Origin: Candidatus Nitrosymbiomonas proteolyticus
GTDB lineage: Bacteria > Armatimonadota > Fimbriimonadia > Fimbriimonadales > Fimbriimonadaceae
DNA: 64,000 nt
Assembly (NCBI GenBank): GCA_017347465.1
Contig: AP021858.1
Coordinates: forward strand, 2,622,472-2,686,471
Reading direction: 5' to 3'
Within the stretch, counting starts at the first letter, position 1. Each line of letters starts with the position of its first letter. Positions 33,048-43,252 of this stretch are shown here, in pieces. The position numbers and the translations under genes are program-made. The notes beneath the pieces were generated by a model. The model saw nothing but the letters and a program-made list of their open reading frames with translations, did not search any database and was not told where the DNA came from.

Positions 33048-33593
33048 CTAGTCCGCATCGATAAGTATCACCATGACAGGGACGGCAGGAAAATGCCGCT
33101 TCAGCCGCTCAATGTCGTAAACAAGGTGCTCGCCGTAAGACACTCCGCTCGACATATGTTGCTGTAGGGCGTGGCAAGGGACGATCTCTACTCCCACGTC
33201 GCACTTCTGCTCATTGTAGAAGTACTGGAACTTGGCTACGTCGTAGAACATGAATGCGTACTTACCAAACTGAACCTCGGTCAAAACCCGGTCTCGCACG
33301 AAATCGACCTGCTTGTACGCCCCTGCGATGCGAACATTCCAATCTGGGATGGTGAGGACATACCGATCAACAAGCTCTGCAAAATCACGCTTGCGAAAGG
33401 CCTCGCGGAACTGTCGGTTCATATCCTTGGGGCTGAACAACTCCCGACCCTTCTTTGTCTTCTCGTTGCTGATTTTGAGTCTGCGTGCCTTCACTTCACC
33501 AATAACTGCCTGAATATCCGAAAGGACCTCCGGCTTGCGAACGGAAAGGATCTCCTCGCCTCCCAGGTGCGAATACGTATAGACAACCTTCAC
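33048..33593 (-). CDS. Type II restriction endonuclease, BglII/BstYI family
   Basis: 181 aa. The catalytic region is QVDFVRDRVLTEVQFGKYAF: Asp97, Glu106 and Gln108. In BglII the active-site residues are Asp84, Glu93 and Gln95, so the 9- and 2-residue spacing and the unusual Gln in place of Lys are reproduced exactly. The family cuts AGATCT or RGATCY; which one applies cannot be read. It lies downstream of, and overlaps by 4 bp (ATGA), its modification methylase, so translation is coupled and the methylase is made first, a normal safety arrangement. Confidence 0.9.
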   Translation of the reverse strand: MKVVYTYSHLGGEEILSVRKPEVLSDIQAVIGEVKARRLKISNEKTKKGRELFSPKDMNRQFREAFRKRDFAELVDRYVLTIPDWNVRIAGAYKQVDFVRDRVLTEVQFGKYAFMFYDVAKFQYFYNEQKCDVGVEIVPCHALQQHMSSGVSYGEHLVYDIERLKRHFPAVPVMVILIDAD

Positions 33594-34546
33594 TCGCCCC
33601 TCGAAACGGAAGGGAATATGGTTTTGCGTTCCAACAGCTTCATTTGGTCTTCACGGTTGTGAAGCGACACGTACTTGGGCGGAACACTTTCCTTCGGTGA
33701 ACTGGGATCATACACCGTCCTTTCCATCGGTCGAATACGCAAGGTTCCGGCCTCTGCCGCCCGAATGCGGCTTTCGGCAATTCGGACATACCGCGGCTCG
33801 ATGTCCGCTCCGATTGTACGCCTACCATGGATCAGAGCAGCAATCTGTGCCGAACCAACCCCCATAAAGGGGTCCAGCACCCAATCCTCTTCGTTGGTCA
33901 GTGAAAGTACTAGCCGCTCAACGAGCTCCACTGGGAACTGACACGGATGTTCTGTCTTCTCTACATGATTGGCTTTGACATTAGGAATGTCCCACACATC
34001 GGTTGGATTCTTGCCTAGCGGGTTGCACGATAGCTGGCCAGCTTTGGGTCCCTTGAAGTGCTTCTTGTTCGGGTACTTGGGCGGGACGCGCACAGCATCT
34101 AGGTTAAAAGTGTAGTCGTTCGTGCGGGTGAACCACAAGATCACCTCGTATCGTCCGGAAAAACGTCTGGACGCATGGAGGCCGTGTCCGAAGTGCCAAA
34201 CTACTCGATTCCGGAGTCGGAGCCCTAGGCTCTCGAAAATCGGGTAGAGCTTCAGGTCTAATGGGACGATCTCTCCGTTGTCAACAAAGTTCCCGACCTG
34301 CCAACAAATGCTCCCGTTCTTGGAGGTCACTCGAACGCACTCTTCGATTACGCTTCGCTGCAGCGATAGGTACTCGCCGATGTCAAGTCGGTTCTCGTAA
34401 GATTTTCCGAGATTGTAAGGAGGCGAAGTCACGACGAGCTTGACAAGGCCGTCCGGAACGGAGCGTAGCAAATCGAGGCAGTCCCCTGCGAAGAGAACAG
34501 CGTTCGCATCCGGATCAAAACGGTCAGCAAGCTTCATTGACTCCAT
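33590..34546 (-). CDS. DNA methyltransferase of the BglII/BstYI-type R-M pair (beta class)
   Basis: S-adenosylmethionine-dependent methylase protecting host sites from the adjacent nuclease. 318 aa. Motif order is catalytic first: TSPPYNLGKSY at 40-50, then FxGxG as LDPFMGVGSAQIA at 224-235, which defines the beta class. TSPPY rather than DPPY is typical of N4-cytosine methylases, as for M.BglII, though N6-adenine cannot be excluded. The start ATG 34546 follows GGAGGG by 6 nt; 29 further in-frame codons upstream lack such a site. Moderately lower GC than the flanks suggests transfer. Confidence 0.92.
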   Translation of the reverse strand: MESMKLADRFDPDANAVLFAGDCLDLLRSVPDGLVKLVVTSPPYNLGKSYENRLDIGEYLSLQRSVIEECVRVTSKNGSICWQVGNFVDNGEIVPLDLKLYPIFESLGLRLRNRVVWHFGHGLHASRRFSGRYEVILWFTRTNDYTFNLDAVRVPPKYPNKKHFKGPKAGQLSCNPLGKNPTDVWDIPNVKANHVEKTEHPCQFPVELVERLVLSLTNEEDWVLDPFMGVGSAQIAALIHGRRTIGADIEPRYVRIAESRIRAAEAGTLRIRPMERTVYDPSSPKESVPPKYVSLHNREDQMKLLERKTIFPSVSRGE

Positions 34547-34743
34547 AGACGGCCCTCCATTAGGAGACGATGCACGTAGAACGCAGTCTACAGGATCCGG
34601 ATAGAGGTTGCAAGGGCCAGACCGCGTTTTCATGACGTTGTTGAGGCGGTGGCTGGCGTGGTGGCCGAGTGCCCTCTGGCTCCGTTTTCTCGACGAGGTT
34701 CGGGCGGAGTTCAGAGAGGGCCCCGGGAAGACGGACCAAGCAG

Positions 34744-34775
34744 AACCCGCCCGACAGCAAGGCCGGGCGGGGGTT
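34744..34775 (-). terminator. GC-rich hairpin downstream of the large secreted protein gene
   Basis: AACCCGCCCG (34744-34753) pairs with CGGGCGGGGGTT (34764-34775, two extra G). It lies 19 bp past the stop at 34794 on the minus strand; only short T stretches follow. The rest of 34547-34793 shows no gene. Confidence 0.45.
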
Positions 34776-34793
34776 CCCTACCGAACGAGGGTC

Positions 34794-36953
34794 CTATGCG
34801 TCATCGGCGTGGGAGATGGCGTCTTTGTACTTGTGCGCCGCTTGAAGGTACTTGCCCCCCGCACGTTTGTCATCTCCCTGGGTCACGAACCTCTGAGCTT
34901 GCGCGATCTTCTGCGGATCGCCGTTTTGGTCGATGGCGTCTGTGATTCGATCGAGGGCCATCATCTTCGAGGCCTCGCAGAGCACCTCCATGAGGGGAAT
35001 CGCGAGCTCCGGTGGGAGTCCGGCATTGACCGACAGTTCGAGGTCCACGATGGCTTCAACGATCTCAAACGCAGAGTCCTCCCACAGGTTTGCGTAGAAC
35101 AACGACAGCGCCGCGCCGAGGTGATCAAGACTGTCTTGGAGTCTGTCTCCAGCCGACCCTCCGTACAGGGCGATGAGGTCCTGGATTTCAGTGCCCGCAT
35201 CGATCATGTGATCGAATACATCGGCAATCGCGTTGATCGTGATCGTGACGGTCACGGTCTGGCTTCGTGAGCCGTAGCGATCCACCGAATAGGTGAAGGA
35301 ATCGGTTTGGTCGAAGTCCGGGTCGGGTACGTAGGTGAAGCTGCCGTCGTTCAGAAGGGTCAGCGCGCCGTGCAGGACGTCGGACTCCAGGATCACCGTT
35401 GCGTTGGACTTCCACTTGTCGTTTACGAGGACGCCGTTCACGGACGTGGTCGCCAAGAGGCTGTCTTCATCTACCGCATAGCTGTCGGCAATGGCGATCG
35501 TGGGCTCGGCCGCGAACATGATAAGCGGCTGTGTTTTTCCGGCCCGGGTCAGATAACCAACGACTCCGATGATGCCGTCGTCGTTTACGCTGATGTCATA
35601 GGGGACATCGTTGGCGTTCTCCGGCCCGTTGAACGTGTGTGACCAAACAAGGTTGCCCAACGGATCAAACCGAGCGACGAGCACGTCTTTCTCGCGGCCA
35701 GTATTCCACGTAATCGCGCAAACGAAGAGGTTGCCGTCCGCATCGAATTGTAGGTCTGTGACCAAGTTCCAGCTACTGGGGACGTCGCCCTGGAGGAACC
35801 TCTCCCAGAGGAGGATGCCGTTCGTGTCGTACTTGCGGACGAACGACTTACCTCCGTATCCGCCGCCAATTGCCACGCTGTCATTCGAATCGAGCGCGAT
35901 GGGCGGATAGGCAAAGTCATAGGGCTCCGTGCTGTTCACAGGGATCACGATGGCGGGCCACGGCCTCGTCGCCGGCATCGTCCCCGAGAACTTGCCGAGA
36001 GTCAAGAATTGCGGCAAGGTCGGGTTGGCGCCGATGGTACTGACGGCAAGGTAATCACCGTTCGAATCGACCACGCCGTTCCATGCCCAGTTCGTCTGAT
36101 GGTTGGCCGGATCAGCCCAGAAGGCCACAGCATAGGGCCAATCAAAATAGGGTGGAGTTGAAGTGGGCCGGATCCGAATGATCTCGCTTACATTTCGATT
36201 TTCGGCCGCAAACCACCACGAACCAAACCCGACCGCTCCGCCCTCGGGGTGCGCGATCCCGCTCATGTGGAAATCCCAGTTGCTCGTGAACAGCCTGTGG
36301 GCTCCTAGAAGGACGGCTGCGGACCCTGCGGGTTCTGGCTCATAGCGGGCGATCCAAGCATCGTAGGAGGTTGCCGATTCTTTCGAGAAGCCAATGGCAA
36401 ACACGTTGCCGAAGTCGTCGAGTACGACCGAATTGACCACGTCGTCCCCGTTGGCGCTTCCGTTGTAGAAGGCGCTCCATCGCCTGGTGCCATCTGGCCG
36501 GTACTTGACGACGGCCCAATTCCCCTGGGCACCGCCCTGCGTCGAGCCCCCAAGGTACATGTTCCCTGAGGAATCTACTGCCATTGAGTTCACGAACGGA
36601 CGGCCAGCCCCGGCGGGCGCCCACTCGTCGAAATACAGCTTCGGCGGCTGGCTCAGGTCCGCCGGATAGAGTCCGAAACGGACTCTGGGAACGCCGGTCA
36701 CCGGATGGCCATAACTCCCAGCGAAGTACTGGTCGCCGTTCGGCATGATGATGTTCTTGTAGTAGTAGTCGTTGAAGGTCGACACATTGGGATGCCATAC
36801 CTGCCACCAATACATGCTCTGGGCTATTGCAGCCCCTGTGGACAAAGCCCCCAAGCCTGCGGCGAAGACCGCCACGCGCCAACCGCGCTCGATCAGTGCC
36901 CTCAGAAAGGAAGCATGGCCCGTCCGTAATCCCTCGAATGCAAACTGATTCAT
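34794..36953 (-). CDS. Large secreted beta-propeller (SBBP-like) protein with Ig-like module
   Basis: 719 aa. Signal peptide WRVAVFAAGLGALSTGAAIAQS near residues 25-46. The next 430 residues are repeated blades with turns such as AVDSSGNMYLGGSTQ, VLDDFGNVFAIGFS, VVDSNGDYLAVST and QFDADGNLFVCAIT, consistent with SBBP/beta-propeller repeats. A cadherin/VCBS-like Ig module follows (about 490-580: AVDEDSLLATTSVNGVLVND and GSFTYVPDPDFDQTDSFTY). The C-terminal 130 residues are helical with no sortase or PEP-CTERM signal. GGGAGAAG precedes ATG 36953. Function likely extracellular binding or matrix. It is divergent from the BTAD regulator, whose putative operators lie in front of it. Confidence 0.75.
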   Translation of the reverse strand: MNQFAFEGLRTGHASFLRALIERGWRVAVFAAGLGALSTGAAIAQSMYWWQVWHPNVSTFNDYYYKNIIMPNGDQYFAGSYGHPVTGVPRVRFGLYPADLSQPPKLYFDEWAPAGAGRPFVNSMAVDSSGNMYLGGSTQGGAQGNWAVVKYRPDGTRRWSAFYNGSANGDDVVNSVVLDDFGNVFAIGFSKESATSYDAWIARYEPEPAGSAAVLLGAHRLFTSNWDFHMSGIAHPEGGAVGFGSWWFAAENRNVSEIIRIRPTSTPPYFDWPYAVAFWADPANHQTNWAWNGVVDSNGDYLAVSTIGANPTLPQFLTLGKFSGTMPATRPWPAIVIPVNSTEPYDFAYPPIALDSNDSVAIGGGYGGKSFVRKYDTNGILLWERFLQGDVPSSWNLVTDLQFDADGNLFVCAITWNTGREKDVLVARFDPLGNLVWSHTFNGPENANDVPYDISVNDDGIIGVVGYLTRAGKTQPLIMFAAEPTIAIADSYAVDEDSLLATTSVNGVLVNDKWKSNATVILESDVLHGALTLLNDGSFTYVPDPDFDQTDSFTYSVDRYGSRSQTVTVTITINAIADVFDHMIDAGTEIQDLIALYGGSAGDRLQDSLDHLGAALSLFYANLWEDSAFEIVEAIVDLELSVNAGLPPELAIPLMEVLCEASKMMALDRITDAIDQNGDPQKIAQAQRFVTQGDDKRAGGKYLQAAHKYKDAISHADDA

Positions 36954-37006
36954 AACTTCTCCCTGCCGGCCAAGGCGCCGAGTTCCCATAGGAGCGGTAC
37001 CGCCAG

Positions 37007-37050
37007 CCGCAAGGGACATTGAACGAGTCTTACCGTCAAGAAACCGTCAA
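37007..37050 (-). promoter_or_regulatory. SARP-type direct repeats and promoter for the secreted protein
   Basis: Reading the minus strand: TTGACGGT (37050-37043), TTC, TTGACGGT (37039-37032), 8 bp, then TTCAAT (37023-37018) as a possible -10. Repeats start 11 bp apart. SARP/AfsR regulators bind heptamer-type direct repeats 11 bp apart, the last 8 bp from the -10 box. Confidence 0.5.
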
Positions 37051-37057
37051 TCCCCAA

Positions 37058-37090
37058 ATGACGCCCCGTTGACGGTACGCCCCGCATCAT
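37058..37090 (+). promoter_or_regulatory. Mirror-image SARP-type box towards the regulator gene
   Basis: Plus strand: ATGACGCC (37058-37065, 5 of 8 matching), then TTGACGGT (37069-37076) 11 bp later, 8 bp, then CATCAT (37085-37090). Layout copies the opposite-facing site and suggests autoregulation. Confidence 0.4.
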
Positions 37091-37144
37091 GCCTTTCGAA
37101 ACGGGACTGAGAGCCCCCGCTTAATACTGCCCATGCGCGAAGAT

Positions 37145-37173
37145 TTGACGAAGAACGCTGGATTCTCTATACT
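37145..37173 (+). promoter_or_regulatory. Sigma-70-type promoter abutting the regulator start codon
   Basis: TTGACG (37145-37150), 17-bp spacer, TATACT (37168-37173), then 8 nt and the ATG at 37182. Transcription should begin at or within 2 nt of the AUG. Confidence 0.65.
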
Positions 37174-37181
37174 GAATTGGG

Positions 37182-40100
37182 ATGAAGAACGGCGCGCGCA
37201 AACGTGCCGATGGAGCAGGCCTTCCTTCCGAATCGGGCAATTCGCGGGCCGAATCGGGCGAGAAGGAAGCGGACGCCTTCGAGCCGTGGCGTGTCCGGCT
37301 GTTCGGAGAGTTCAGAGCCGAACGACACGGGCGCAAGGCGACCTTCGGGCTCAAGAAAGCTGCCAACCTACTGGCGCACCTGGTGTTCCACTTGGGCGAA
37401 ACCGTATCCAAGGAGCGCCTCGTGGAGTCGTTCTGGCCCGATTCGGATTCCGAAAAGGGACGACATTCCCTTCGCATGGCGGCGAGTTCGCTGCGATCCG
37501 CGCTTGCCGCACCCGACTGGAATCCCGAAGTCCACCTTCCCTCGACCCGCGATACCTTGGAAGCGTCTTCATGTGGCTTTGTCACGGACGTTCAAGAGTT
37601 CCGAGCGCACCTTGCCGCCGCGAACAGCATCGAAGACCCATCCTCCAAGGCCTGCCACTTGCGCGCTGCGACGGGACTCTACGTTGGGCCGCTCTTGGAC
37701 GGATTCGCGGAGGAATGGATCTACCCCCAATCTCTCCCGCTGGAAGAATCCTTCGCGCAAGCGGCGTGCGAGTTGATCCTGATTCAAGCTCAGGAAGGGG
37801 ATCTTGCAGGCGCGGCCGGATTGGGAAAGAGGGCCATCGCGCTCTGTCCCACCCGCGAAGACCTGCACGTCGCTCTGATGCGGGCATACGCCCTCGCCGG
37901 CGAGACTTCGATGGCGATCCAGCAGTACGAGGAGCTCGAGCGGATGGTGGATGAGACGTGGGGCGAAGAGCCTGGCAAGGCGGCCCGAGAGGTCCTGGAG
38001 TCCTTGCCTCGAACCGCGATCGCTCATGTCCGGGCGGACACTATCGCTCCCGAGTCGCCGTCGCCTGGCTTCGCATCCAAGCCTCCTACTCGCCGCGCCG
38101 CGTTCTTTGGAAGGGAGGCGGAGCTTGGACTCGTTCGCCAGCAGCTATCGAGCGAGGACGGATTTCGACTGATCACATTGATCGGGCTAGGCGGTTTCGG
38201 CAAGACCCGAATCGCCGAAGAAGCGAGGATTGAGAGCTTCGACTCGTTCGAACGCAGGTCTTGGATGGTTTCCCTCCTGGGATGCCGCAACGAAGACGAG
38301 GTCCAGGAAGCACTCATGGCGCCGTTCGAAGGGCTACCCCAACGAGTTTCCGATCCTGTTCAGGTCGTTGGGGCGCGAATCGGGAGCCAACCCGGGTTGC
38401 TCGTGATCGACAACTGCGAGCAAGTTCTTCGGGAAGCGTCCGCCGTTGTCGAAGCACTCCTTGCGAATTGTCCGAAACTGCGGATTCTTGCGACAAGCCG
38501 AGTCCCGTTTGGGCTGCCGTACGAACTCGCCGTGCCGGTCGGCGGCCTCCCCGTTCCTTCGGAAGGAACGGACCTCGAGACATTGCTCGATTCCCCGATT
38601 GTGCGGTTGCTCGCGAACGCCGCGCAGTGCGTCCGGCCCGGGTTTGCAGTTACGCCGGACAACGCTCGTGGAGTCCAGGCTCTTTGCGCTATGCTCGAAG
38701 GCATTCCGCTGGCCGTTGAATTGGCAGCGGCGCAACTGGGGACGCTGTCTCCTGCGGAACTCGTGGGAGCGATTGGCAGACGGACCGACCTGGCGGATAA
38801 CGATCGGCGCATTGAGTCGCGTCACAGGCATTTGAGATCGGTCTTGGAGTGGAGCGTGCATCAGCTTCCGGCTGAGGAACAGAAGGCGCTCGCCAAGCTA
38901 AGCGTTTGTCGGGGGAGCTTCAAGCGCGACCTGGCCGAAGCCATTCTTGGCAGCCGATCTGATAAGGCTCTGAACCATCTTTCGAGTTCATCGCTGGTTT
39001 CCTGGTCGGAAAGGTCGGACACTCTGCGCTTTTGCCTGCTCGAAACAGTACGTGAACTGGGTCAACGCTTGCTCGAAAAGGATGCGAAAGCGAAGAAGGA
39101 CGCATGCGCGGCCCTCGTCCGGTGGGCGACCCACCTGACGGAAGGAATCCATCAGGTCGAGAGCCATTCGGAAGCTAGTCTTTGGGCCGAACTCGTTTCT
39201 ACGGAAACCGTGAACGTGCTTGCCGCTCTGCAGGCGTGCGTCGACGGCGTAGTCGAGCCCGAGGAGGCTTGGAAACTCGCTTTTCCCCTGGTCCAACTTT
39301 GCGAATACCGCGGCTGGGCGCAACCTTGGATTCGGGCGATCGAATCCCTCCTTGAAGCGACCCGCGAACGACTGTCGCAGGCGACGTTGTCCCAAGCGCA
39401 CGCGACTCTGAGACTTCTGTATTACAACCTTCGGGACATTCGCAACGCGCACCGTCACATCACCTCGGCCGTCCGCGCTGCCGATGAGGATGGTTCGCCT
39501 CTTCTGCGAGGCCGATGCCGCTCGTCGTTCTCGGTCACGGCGTCGCTGCTGGGACAATTCGAGGAGGCACAACGGGCGGCGACGGAGGCGATGGAGCTCT
39601 TGCTGGTGGCAGGAGAGCCGGTGTCGGCTGCGCGGTCAGCGCTGTTTTACGGCTGGGTCGTCTTTGATCGGGGCGACGAAGTGGAGTCAGAGCCTTTCTT
39701 TCGCAGGGCCCTGGAGCTCGGTGAGTCGAGCGGCGACACCGAAACCATCGGTTCCTCGCTCTTGGGACTCGCCTGCTCGGTCGGGCATCGCTCCCACCCG
39801 GATGCCCAGCCGATTTTCGACCGAGCGTTGGAACAGATGCAGGAGCTTGGGAAGCCGGGGCAACTCGGCCATTCCTACTTCTATCGAAGTCTCATCGACT
39901 ACCGGCATGGGAGGCTCCGGGCGGCGATGGAGAATTTCGCTGAGTCCGTAATGGCGTTCACGGGGGCCGGCATCGCACTTGGCCAGACGCCGCTCACCAT
40001 CGGGGGCACGATTCTGGCCGCCTTGGGCCGATACGACGATGCGGCACTCTGTTGGGGCCGAGCCGAGGCGCTGCGCGAGTCGCACGGCATGACGATGTTC

Positions 40101-40256
40101 CCGACCCAGCAGAGGGACTTCGACCGGGAGTTCCCCAAGGTTCAGAACGCGCTCTCGGAGGAGGGTTTGAGGCGGTCGATGCGAGCCGCTCGCTCCGCCA
40201 CGGACGAAGAAATCCGGGAGATGATTTGCCGGGCCGTAAGGGCCGTGAGGGCGTGA
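37182..40256 (+). CDS. SARP/AfsR-like regulator: BTAD + NTPase + TPR (1024 aa)
   Basis: A very large transcriptional activator. Residues about 35-125: winged helix ([35 protein letters not shown]). About 130-275: bacterial transcriptional activator domain (BTAD) with AGLGKRAIALCPTREDLHVALMRAYALAGETSMAIQQYEELERM-like helices. About 305-600: STAND-type NTPase with GRxxEL motif FFGREAELGLV, Walker A LIGLGGFGKTRIAE and Walker B-like LLVIDNCEQVL, plus the sensor SRVPFGLPYEL. The remainder is TPR-like. This is the architecture of Streptomyces AfsR. Start ATG appears leaderless. The probable target is the divergent secreted protein. Signal unknown. Confidence 0.88.
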   Translation: MKNGARKRADGAGLPSESGNSRAESGEKEADAFEPWRVRLFGEFRAERHGRKATFGLKKAANLLAHLVFHLGETVSKERLVESFWPDSDSEKGRHSLRMAASSLRSALAAPDWNPEVHLPSTRDTLEASSCGFVTDVQEFRAHLAAANSIEDPSSKACHLRAATGLYVGPLLDGFAEEWIYPQSLPLEESFAQAACELILIQAQEGDLAGAAGLGKRAIALCPTREDLHVALMRAYALAGETSMAIQQYEELERMVDETWGEEPGKAAREVLESLPRTAIAHVRADTIAPESPSPGFASKPPTRRAAFFGREAELGLVRQQLSSEDGFRLITLIGLGGFGKTRIAEEARIESFDSFERRSWMVSLLGCRNEDEVQEALMAPFEGLPQRVSDPVQVVGARIGSQPGLLVIDNCEQVLREASAVVEALLANCPKLRILATSRVPFGLPYELAVPVGGLPVPSEGTDLETLLDSPIVRLLANAAQCVRPGFAVTPDNARGVQALCAMLEGIPLAVELAAAQLGTLSPAELVGAIGRRTDLADNDRRIESRHRHLRSVLEWSVHQLPAEEQKALAKLSVCRGSFKRDLAEAILGSRSDKALNHLSSSSLVSWSERSDTLRFCLLETVRELGQRLLEKDAKAKKDACAALVRWATHLTEGIHQVESHSEASLWAELVSTETVNVLAALQACVDGVVEPEEAWKLAFPLVQLCEYRGWAQPWIRAIESLLEATRERLSQATLSQAHATLRLLYYNLRDIRNAHRHITSAVRAADEDGSPLLRGRCRSSFSVTASLLGQFEEAQRAATEAMELLLVAGEPVSAARSALFYGWVVFDRGDEVESEPFFRRALELGESSGDTETIGSSLLGLACSVGHRSHPDAQPIFDRALEQMQELGKPGQLGHSYFYRSLIDYRHGRLRAAMENFAESVMAFTGAGIALGQTPLTIGGTILAALGRYDDAALCWGRAEALRESHGMTMFPTQQRDFDREFPKVQNALSEEGLRRSMRAARSATDEEIREMICRAVRAVRA

Positions 40257-40931: not shown

Positions 40932-41819
40932 ATGCTTCAAATGTGGGTGGATCATGTCAAGTGTGCTGCAGATCTGCGAACTGAGCTTAGTGAGACGATC
41001 AGGGGATTCGAAGATCAGATTCAGCAGAAGACCAAGAAAGCGGCGCCCTATCTCGACAACCTCAAGGCCCTTGTGCATGCTTTGGCAACCGAAGATGATC
41101 CCTACACTCTGTACCTGAGGGCTGAATTCCGCAGCGCAATCATAGCTGCTTGTCTGATTTCGAACAAATCGGCTGGCCACCTCGTGGGAGCGGCGTTGGA
41201 TAAGATCGTCGAAGACTCGTTGGTCAAGTTGAAAGCCAACGACCCTGAGTGGAAAGAGGTCCTGGTTTCGCGAGCGGCGCTTACGTGGGGCGACGCGCTC
41301 GGCGGCTCAATGCGTAACTTGGTCGGTCAGCAGGCCGAAGCAGGATTTCTGGACCGATTGGTGGCCATCCTAAGGGCGAAGGGGCTTAGCCCCAATGTAG
41401 GCACCAGCACGGGAGGCAAGGTCAACAGCGTGAGTTGGGGTACGCGCATCGTGTTTCTCAATCGAACCTGCGGGATCGTCAGGAACAACATAGATGCGGT
41501 ACTAACGGACGCGACAGCCGGCCAACCGAACTTGGACGACCCGTCCGTCTACATTGCTTGTGGCGAACTTAAGGGAGGCATTGACCCAGCGGGTGCCGAC
41601 GAGCACTGGAAGACCGCGCGCACGGCATTGGATCGAATTCGAGATCAGTTCAAGACGGAGGGATACGCCCCAAAGCTCTTTTTCGTTGGAGCTGCCATCG
41701 AAAGCGCGATGGCAGATGAGATCTTTCAACGCTTGAAGGATGGACTGTTGTCACATGCCGCGAATCTGACGAAGCCCGCACAAGTGACGGACCTGTGCGA
41801 GTGGCTCATTGGCCTTTAA
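40932..41819 (+). CDS. Type II restriction endonuclease, AvaI/BsoBI family
   Basis: 295 aa. Conserved C-terminal core: RNNIDAVLTD (Asp188) and YIACGELKGGIDPAGADEHW (Glu212, Lys214), matching the D...ExK catalytic set of BsoBI (Asp212, Glu240, Lys242). N-terminal helical part TKKAAPYLDNLKALVHAL and ISNKSAGHLVGAALDKIVEDS resembles family members. The family cuts CYCGRG; specificity here is inferred only. GGAG 4 nt before ATG 40932. It converges with, and overlaps by 4 bp, its probable methylase. Lower GC than the surrounding genes. Confidence 0.88.
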   Translation: MLQMWVDHVKCAADLRTELSETIRGFEDQIQQKTKKAAPYLDNLKALVHALATEDDPYTLYLRAEFRSAIIAACLISNKSAGHLVGAALDKIVEDSLVKLKANDPEWKEVLVSRAALTWGDALGGSMRNLVGQQAEAGFLDRLVAILRAKGLSPNVGTSTGGKVNSVSWGTRIVFLNRTCGIVRNNIDAVLTDATAGQPNLDDPSVYIACGELKGGIDPAGADEHWKTARTALDRIRDQFKTEGYAPKLFFVGAAIESAMADEIFQRLKDGLLSHAANLTKPAQVTDLCEWLIGL

Positions 41820-43252
41820 CTTTTACGCCACACGTAGACGCACTTGCGCAACTCCTTCCTTCCGTGCTCTCCCATCTGCTGACTGCTGTTGCCCTTCCCG
41901 GTAGGGAGCACCCAGATTCGTTCCGTGCGCAGCCCCGCTCGCATTGCGAAATCGGAAAGGATGAGGTCAACCGGGATCGATGCGCCTGCGTAGCGAACGT
42001 TGTCGTTGACCATAACGATAGGAGCGCGCTCTGATAGAATCTCCGCCAACTGGAAAATCGCGACGGTCATCTCCAAGAAGTAGCCTTCAACCATTCGAGC
42101 GATGCCATCGTTGTTCAGCTGACCACGATCCCTTTGGTCACGAAGATATGCGAGCGTCCCTTGAAGAAACTCGTGACAATGAAATGCCTCGAGGGCGGAC
42201 CTCCAAATTGTATCCGGGATCGTGCGCGATAAATGGACCTTTTCCCGATTCTCGACCGTACACGTCAAGAGTGACTGGCGAAGTTCCTTTAGTCTCTCCT
42301 CGCCAACCCCAAGGGCAGCTAACTCTAATGCATACGTCCGTGTGTAATCGTAGCGGTTGCAGTATGGCGGAGAGGTGATGACACCTGCAATTGATCTCGG
42401 TTCCAGTTCGGAAAGCCTCTCAAAGAGGCTTCCTGCCGCCACGGTCATTCGGCCCCTAATCGGTTCATCGAAAAGTCCCTGCAATCTGTCTCCGGGTCCA
42501 TTCAGGTCAGCACAAATCTCTGCCAACTTCCCACCTATCGCGGCCTCGAAGCCGAGAATTCGGCCTTTGTCAAAGGGCTTCTTGCCCTGACGCCTGCCAG
42601 ACCGATGATCCCACCTGAGATATTGGCCATCCTTCCGTGTGAAGCTAATAGGTTCGAGAATGCAGAGCGCGGCGAATCGCAGGACCGTAAACAATGGATC
42701 ATCCATCGAATGTGCAAAGGCAAGATAGCGCCCAAGCTCAACTTCCGTGTCCGCTGGGAACGCATCCCTTGTTATGCGAAGATGGGGAAAAGGCATGCCT
42801 GATCCAACCCATGACTTCCAGGGCCTCTCGTGGGCTATTCTTCCAAGGGCCGCAACCTCGTCGGGAGATAGCAGAGACGCCGCCTCCCTAGCTCGCATGA
42901 CCTCGACGCCGACAGGAAGAAGCTCGATCCCAAACGAGTCTCGCCCAAGGCTGCTTGCCTCATAAAGGGTTGTTCCAACACCTGCAAATGGATCGAGAAT
43001 TGGGCCGGGCGGAAACGCAGTGGACTCGAGGAAGCTCCTCACAAGCGCGGAGGAAAAGCCCTCCTTATATCTGAACCATCGGAGGACTGGTTCGGTCTTG
43101 TTCGCCTGAAAGGAAACGAGTTGCCTCGTCAACGAGGCGTTCACAGTGAGCTTGTCCGCGTATCGTGCCTCCAGCGAAGCCTCCATCGCGGCAAGCTCAC
43201 GGAGGGTGGGGACAGCCGAGGAATAAGTCGAAACGGTCAGTGTAGTCGCCAT
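41816..43252 (-). CDS. DNA methyltransferase of the AvaI/BsoBI-type R-M pair
   Basis: 478 aa. SAM-binding motif LDPFAGVGTTLYEAS at 86-100, catalytic ITSPPYCNRYDYTRTYALEL at 292-311, separated by about 190 residues. TSPPY suggests N4-cytosine methylation, as expected for M.AvaI-type enzymes on CYCGRG. The order of motifs (FxGxG before TSPPY) differs from the beta-class methylase at 33590. It is convergent with the nuclease gene, so the two are separately promoted; no controller (C) protein gene is visible to delay restriction. Confidence 0.88.
   Translation of the reverse strand: MATTLTVSTYSSAVPTLRELAAMEASLEARYADKLTVNASLTRQLVSFQANKTEPVLRWFRYKEGFSSALVRSFLESTAFPPGPILDPFAGVGTTLYEASSLGRDSFGIELLPVGVEVMRAREAASLLSPDEVAALGRIAHERPWKSWVGSGMPFPHLRITRDAFPADTEVELGRYLAFAHSMDDPLFTVLRFAALCILEPISFTRKDGQYLRWDHRSGRRQGKKPFDKGRILGFEAAIGGKLAEICADLNGPGDRLQGLFDEPIRGRMTVAAGSLFERLSELEPRSIAGVITSPPYCNRYDYTRTYALELAALGVGEERLKELRQSLLTCTVENREKVHLSRTIPDTIWRSALEAFHCHEFLQGTLAYLRDQRDRGQLNNDGIARMVEGYFLEMTVAIFQLAEILSERAPIVMVNDNVRYAGASIPVDLILSDFAMRAGLRTERIWVLPTGKGNSSQQMGEHGRKELRKCVYVWRKS

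Follow-up and report, generated by a model that had tools for sequence, protein, structure and literature searches.

The window (the whole 64,000-nucleotide stretch of DNA analysed here) contains two divergent genes, one for a large regulator, P0001, and one for a beta-propeller protein, P0002, and the intergenic region between them carries tandem repeats on both strands (Table 1). A GGGAG sequence that resembles a ribosome-binding site lies ahead of the P0002 ATG at 36953. The signal peptide of P0002 was called by eye, without a predictor, and an AlphaFold2 model of the protein (mean pLDDT 54.8) was strand-rich, of low confidence and not used. On either side of the module lies a Type II restriction-modification pair: at 33048-34633 a BglII-like endonuclease and an N6/N4 methylase, and at 40932-43252 a BsoBI-like endonuclease and a methylase. 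No antibiotic gene cluster was recognised beside the locus, where the predicted target and its neighbours are a secreted protein and restriction-modification genes.

Table 1. Features of the regulator-propeller locus, with positions counted in the window.
Feature	Position	Strand	Description and basis
P0002, 720 aa, predicted target	34794..36953	-	Signal-peptide-like N-terminus, SBBP beta-propeller repeats, Big_9/cadherin-like domain, helical C-terminus (Pfam, NCBIfam, translation)
Predicted -10 box TTCAAT	37018..37023	-	8 bp past the second 8-mer; putative function
Tandem operator for the propeller gene (predicted)	37032..37050	-	Two 11-bp units (8 conserved + 3); repeats, with the same build upstream of relatives' propeller and regulator genes
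Facing tandem operator, towards the regulator gene (predicted)	37058..37076	+	ATGACGCC-CCG-TTGACGGT; perfect match to TGACGN6TGACGN10YNNNAT
Predicted -10 box CATCAT, plus-strand half	37085..37090	+	Putative function
Sigma-70-type promoter TTGACG-17-TATACT, regulator gene	37145..37173	+	10/12 matches; 0.1 expected in shuffles
P0001, 1024 aa, large SARP, AfsR-like	37182..40256	+	OmpR-type winged helix, BTAD, NB-ARC-like NTPase, TPR (Pfam, PDB sequence hits, AlphaFold2 and Foldseek)

A genome of the same species, CP054189.1 (H1_ARM1), belongs to the Armatimonadota, which confirms the phylum in which a sequence-only reading of this DNA had said that such a system would be unusual. H1_ARM1 lacks window positions 33096-39362 and has other sequence in their place (L087 comparison); missing from it are the BglII-like restriction-modification pair, the propeller gene together with its operator, and roughly the first 722 residues of the regulator, of which the last 302 are kept. 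The module can thus be dispensed with and sits in a variable region that has a restriction-modification pair at either side, and footprinting by comparison with the closest genome is impossible. The replacement sequence has short matches to the window at 40.7 and 44.3-44.5 kb.

Read directly, the minus strand from 37050 to 37018 consists of TTGACGGT-TTC-TTGACGGT, 8 bp of spacer (AAGACTCG) and TTCAAT, and its tandem, TTGACGGTTTCTTGACGGT, is an exact 11-bp repeat. The plus strand from 37058 to 37090 has the same layout, with ATGACGCC-CCG-TTGACGGT, 8 bp (ACGCCCCG) and CATCAT, and the first box of this tandem (ATGACGCCCCGTTGACGGT), ATGACGCC, is imperfect. The sequence-only reading had described just these elements, repeats of 11-bp period followed by 8 bp and a hexamer on each strand. 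A repeat search returned the exact pair ACCGTCAA at 37032 and 37043, with a facing arm at 37069. TTCAAT recurs at the identical distance after the operator in related loci (twice in L108, and in L110 and L111), and at L238 and L239, both ahead of secreted-protein genes, the operator is likewise followed by CATCAT. An ordinary sigma-70 promoter using the TTGACG of the repeats as its -35 element was rejected on either strand, as there is no -10 element at 16-18 bp.

The pattern is rare in the genome. A whole-genome search for two repeats separated by N3, which the sequence-only reading had proposed, found the exact tandem TTGACGGT-N3-TTGACGGT once in 2,809,316 bases, only here; with up to 3 mismatches it was hardly commoner than its reversed control (21 versus 16). 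The fuller pattern TGACG-N6-TGACG-N10-YNNNAT is matched perfectly at two places in the 2.81-Mb genome, counting both strands, and both lie in this intergenic region, on opposite strands and back to back. This test was not fully blind, since the Y was chosen after CATCAT had been seen. The three matches with one mismatch all fall within long open frames. As the matches are limited to one intergenic region, the regulon in this genome seems to be a single locus rather than a set of genes.

We then turn to the protein encoded beside the repeats. Pfam found BTAD in P0001 (5e-19) and Trans_reg_C (2e-5, with bits slightly below the cut-off), and in the C-terminal part TPR_12 above the cut-off and NB-ARC and AAA_16 below it. 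A sequence search of PDB structures returned EmbR and full-length AfsR, with AfsR (8k60) aligned along P0001 residues 35-928, and the domain order is that of the full AfsR. An AlphaFold2 model of residues 1-300 had a pLDDT of 89.6, and AfsR and EmbR were its sole Foldseek matches below E 0.001. The neighbouring gene had been read as encoding a BTAD-NTPase-TPR protein, and these results bear that out. The NCBIfam AfsR equivalog model scored P0001 at 57 bits against a cut-off of 1430, and P0001 is not an AfsR equivalog. Two arginines with which AfsR contacts the DNA backbone phosphates, R87 and R94, correspond to R98 and R105 of P0001 and do not vary among the operator-bearing proteins. The residues with which AfsR contacts bases, T88 and R92, are M and S in P0001 and differ in most operator-bearing relatives, which agrees with a box sequence other than that of AfsR and means that DNA specificity cannot be transferred from AfsR. 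By sequence, predicted fold and promoter architecture P0001 is a large SARP, with DNA binding and activation as its predicted functions.

For comparison we took the upstream DNA of 80 BTAD genes from related genomes, 73 of them usable, which with the window made 74 loci. Exact 6-mer repeats in the 500 bp upstream of these genes, counted with no motif assumed, peaked at a spacing of 11 (53, the next being 38). Generic scoring of 11-bp repeats gave at least 7 of 8 matches at 19/74 loci against 7/69 control stretches; this excess is modest, probably because distant paralogs use other box sequences.

The closest relatives were more informative. All four nearest to P0001, at 36-40% identity, have the same operator, and next to three of them, as in the window, lies a gene for a secreted SBBP propeller. 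In genomes G147, G042 and G146 the gene immediately upstream of the regulator, on its strand, encodes a secreted SBBP-type propeller, and the same holds for two more paralogs, in G147 and G017. Pfam gave no hit for the G146 propeller, which is 51% identical to a G147 propeller, and the SBBP hit of the G017 propeller is slightly under the cut-off. A test consensus taken from the window alone, TGACG-N6-TGACG-N10-TTCAAT, was scored against 200 shuffles. Its best match lay 41-52 bp before the start codon in all five propeller genes adjoining related regulators, and it also matched upstream of five related regulator genes (L108, L110, L111, L114 and L115). At most 2 of the 200 shuffles reached the observed score in nine of these ten cases, L158 being weaker (25/200); for the propeller genes taken separately this was so in four of five, with the fifth weak. 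Together with the AfsR/EmbR-like N-terminus in the predicted structure, these matches at relatives' promoters support the SARP-type reading first made from the sequence.

A position matrix built from seven sites was used to scan 944,016 positions. The held-out sites L114, L115, L158 and L169 ranked at the top and lie upstream of BTAD genes or secreted neighbours; the plus-strand half of the window operator ranked 15 of 944,016 (PWM score 11.1). In the family tree P0001 belongs to a clade of five members with support 100, of which all five have the operator and four an SBBP-type propeller neighbour, and the sister clade is mostly operator-bearing too. Upstream of the related regulators L112, L116 and L120 no clear operator was found. 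The propeller promoter of G042 (L109, 5521-5567) carries facing tandem pairs, CGTCACAGAAACGTCAC ... TGTGACGGTTCCGTGA, in a layout like the back-to-back one of the window.

Across 291 genomes of the phylum we searched for TGACG-N4-TGTGACG-N10-TNNNAT with at most one mismatch, using the reversed pattern as control. The family of the window gave 28 matches against 10. Nine genomes, those with the highest BTAD protein scores against the clade model, accounted for 12 against 0, three of the 12 at regulator loci already known; the rest of the family gave 16 against 10, and outside the family there was no excess over the control. Shortly past the -10 box, signal-peptide-like starts were found in G017 (four genes), G035 (two), G173, G025 (two), G147 and G146. 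A crude, home-made signal-peptide rule was positive downstream of 10/31 sites against 2/30 control sites and 6.6% of random positions, although two of the ten positives (L226 and L240) look false by eye. At L222 (G104), in a different family of the phylum, divergent BTAD and signal-peptide genes share an intergenic region and the operator faces the secreted gene. BTAD domains as such are present in other phyla, as seen in control genomes, and a literature search for BTAD or SARP regulators in Armatimonadota found nothing relevant.

The regulator gene also has a promoter of its own, which the sequence-only reading had overlooked: TTGACG-17-TATACT ends 8 bp before the regulator ATG, and the mRNA made from it is probably leaderless. 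Hexamers resembling a -10 box 6-9 bp ahead of the start codon are common at the BTAD genes of the 74 loci, as at window positions 37168-37173, with GATAAT-8-ATG in L108 and GATAAT-8-GTG in L109, and suggest leaderless regulator mRNAs there as well. With so strong a promoter the plus-strand half would not be needed for basal expression, and would be a second, distal element of the regulator gene, as in L108. P0001 had been proposed to activate both the propeller gene and itself. The first part is supported by the comparison with relatives; self-activation becomes less certain given the canonical promoter at 37145-37173.

A tenable though rather doubtful alternative is that the minus-strand half alone is a working promoter, the plus half being a decayed copy or an extra repressor or accessory site, and the regulator gene being transcribed from 37145-37173. 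The strength of that separate promoter fits this arrangement, as do the imperfect first box ATGACGCC and poor -10 box of the plus half, and the facing copies before the G042 propeller gene suggest that facing pairs may serve one promoter. However, the plus half matches operator and -10 box perfectly, as one of two such matches in the genome; CATCAT stands in the -10 position at L238 and L239; and an operator precedes the regulator gene in L108 and L110 too, in L108 alongside a proximal promoter.

We think it unlikely that the repeats are a pho-box-like operator bound by an OmpR/PhoB-type response regulator from elsewhere in the genome rather than by the neighbouring BTAD protein. Winged helices of the OmpR type do bind similar 11-bp direct repeats, and the DNA-binding domain of P0001 is of the same type; Streptomyces PhoP overlaps AfsR at afsS (PMC10972967), and some relatives' sites precede secreted genes with no BTAD gene seen nearby. 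Yet the sites are concentrated in the genomes that carry the P0001 clade (the 12 against 0 above) and lie directly at BTAD genes and their neighbours, and the spacing between the last box and the -10 box is a consistent 8 bp, which is the SARP rule. That the repeats arose by chance in a GC-rich intergenic region and have no regulatory meaning is highly improbable and already contradicted by the comparative data: 8-bp direct repeats are not rare as such, and shuffles of the window give 0.4-0.5 matches on average with up to 3 mismatches, but the pattern is near-unique genome-wide, forms a back-to-back pair, and is kept in promoters of genera whose regulators are only 36-40% identical.

We therefore return to a bidirectional SARP-type operator, through which P0001 most likely activates the propeller gene and probably also tunes its own. 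Binding and activation are predictions of this model, as are the signal and the role of the propeller protein. P0001 would bind as a dimer, its subunits side by side on two 8-bp boxes that lie one helical turn apart. The boxes would stand in for the -35 element of each promoter, with a weak -10 box 8 bp downstream, an arrangement that would let the dimer recruit RNA polymerase. Dimers at 37032-37050 would switch on the divergent secreted beta-propeller gene, and at the weaker facing copy (37058-37076) P0001 would probably raise or modulate its own transcription, which otherwise would start from the separate constitutive-type promoter just ahead of the ATG. As in AfsR, P0001 activity is expected to be governed by nucleotide binding and by the TPR sensor.

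More broadly, we see about even chances that in one Armatimonadota family AfsR-like SARPs form a lineage-specific layer of secretome control, in which every regulator, by itself or with a few others that share TGACG-type boxes, controls a small group of signal-peptide proteins, often an adjacent SBBP propeller, through operators that follow the Streptomyces rule. If so, the SARP-type promoter architecture is older than Actinobacteria or extends beyond them, and its use is not tied to antibiotics. The promoter grammar of SARPs, with 11-bp repeats and 8 bp between the last repeat and the -10 box, is seen here outside their usual phylum, where it is conserved together with the regulator and associated with secreted proteins. 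In a phylum that has been little studied, it offers a regulatory code that can be read, with regulons predictable from sequence. Natural regulator-operator pairs with altered base contacts are likewise material for learning how SARPs read DNA.

SARPs are generally described as switches of antibiotic or other secondary-metabolite clusters, which is not a mechanistic criterion, and a description as Actinobacteria plus secondary-metabolite cluster does not fit this locus. The interest of the finding lies in part in a review that still calls SARPs exclusive to actinobacteria (PMC10972967). Among related systems, the SBBP/delta-60 propellers, such as the LipL53 family of Leptospira, share SBBP repeats with P0002, which differs as a signal-peptide protein with a cadherin-like domain and a helical tail and scores far under the LipL53 cut-off (49 bits against 400). 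EmbR of Mycobacterium tuberculosis has the same winged helix and BTAD fold as P0001, but an FHA domain replaces the NTPase and TPR parts and its targets are others. ActII-ORF4, DnrI and other cluster-situated SARPs also use heptamer-like direct repeats that overlap the -35 element, sometimes at divergent promoters (PMC10972967); unlike P0001, ActII-ORF4 and DnrI are small SARPs for antibiotic gene clusters.

The closest parallel is AfsR at afsS in Streptomyces coelicolor. In SARP target promoters the direct repeats are spaced by 11 or 22 bp, and 8 bp separate the last of them from the -10 box; AfsR molecules sit side by side, contacting 8 bp of each 11-bp unit, with its box overlapping the -35 element; the afsS -10 box is a weak CACTGT; and the NTPase and TPR parts of AfsR are inhibitory until ATP binds (PMC10936776). 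The window fits each DNA feature of that description. The two systems are alike in domain order, in the fold of the N-terminal 250 residues, in two 11-bp repeats with 8 conserved bp placed at -35, and in a weak -10 box 8 bp downstream. They differ in box sequence, CGTT(T/C)ATCGNN for AfsR against TTGACGGT/GTGACG here, and our locus is set in another phylum, with one secreted protein as its predicted target and a separate, leaderless-type promoter for the regulator. The novelty of the system lies in its phylum and box sequence, in a regulon that appears to consist of a single locus, and in the link with secreted proteins.
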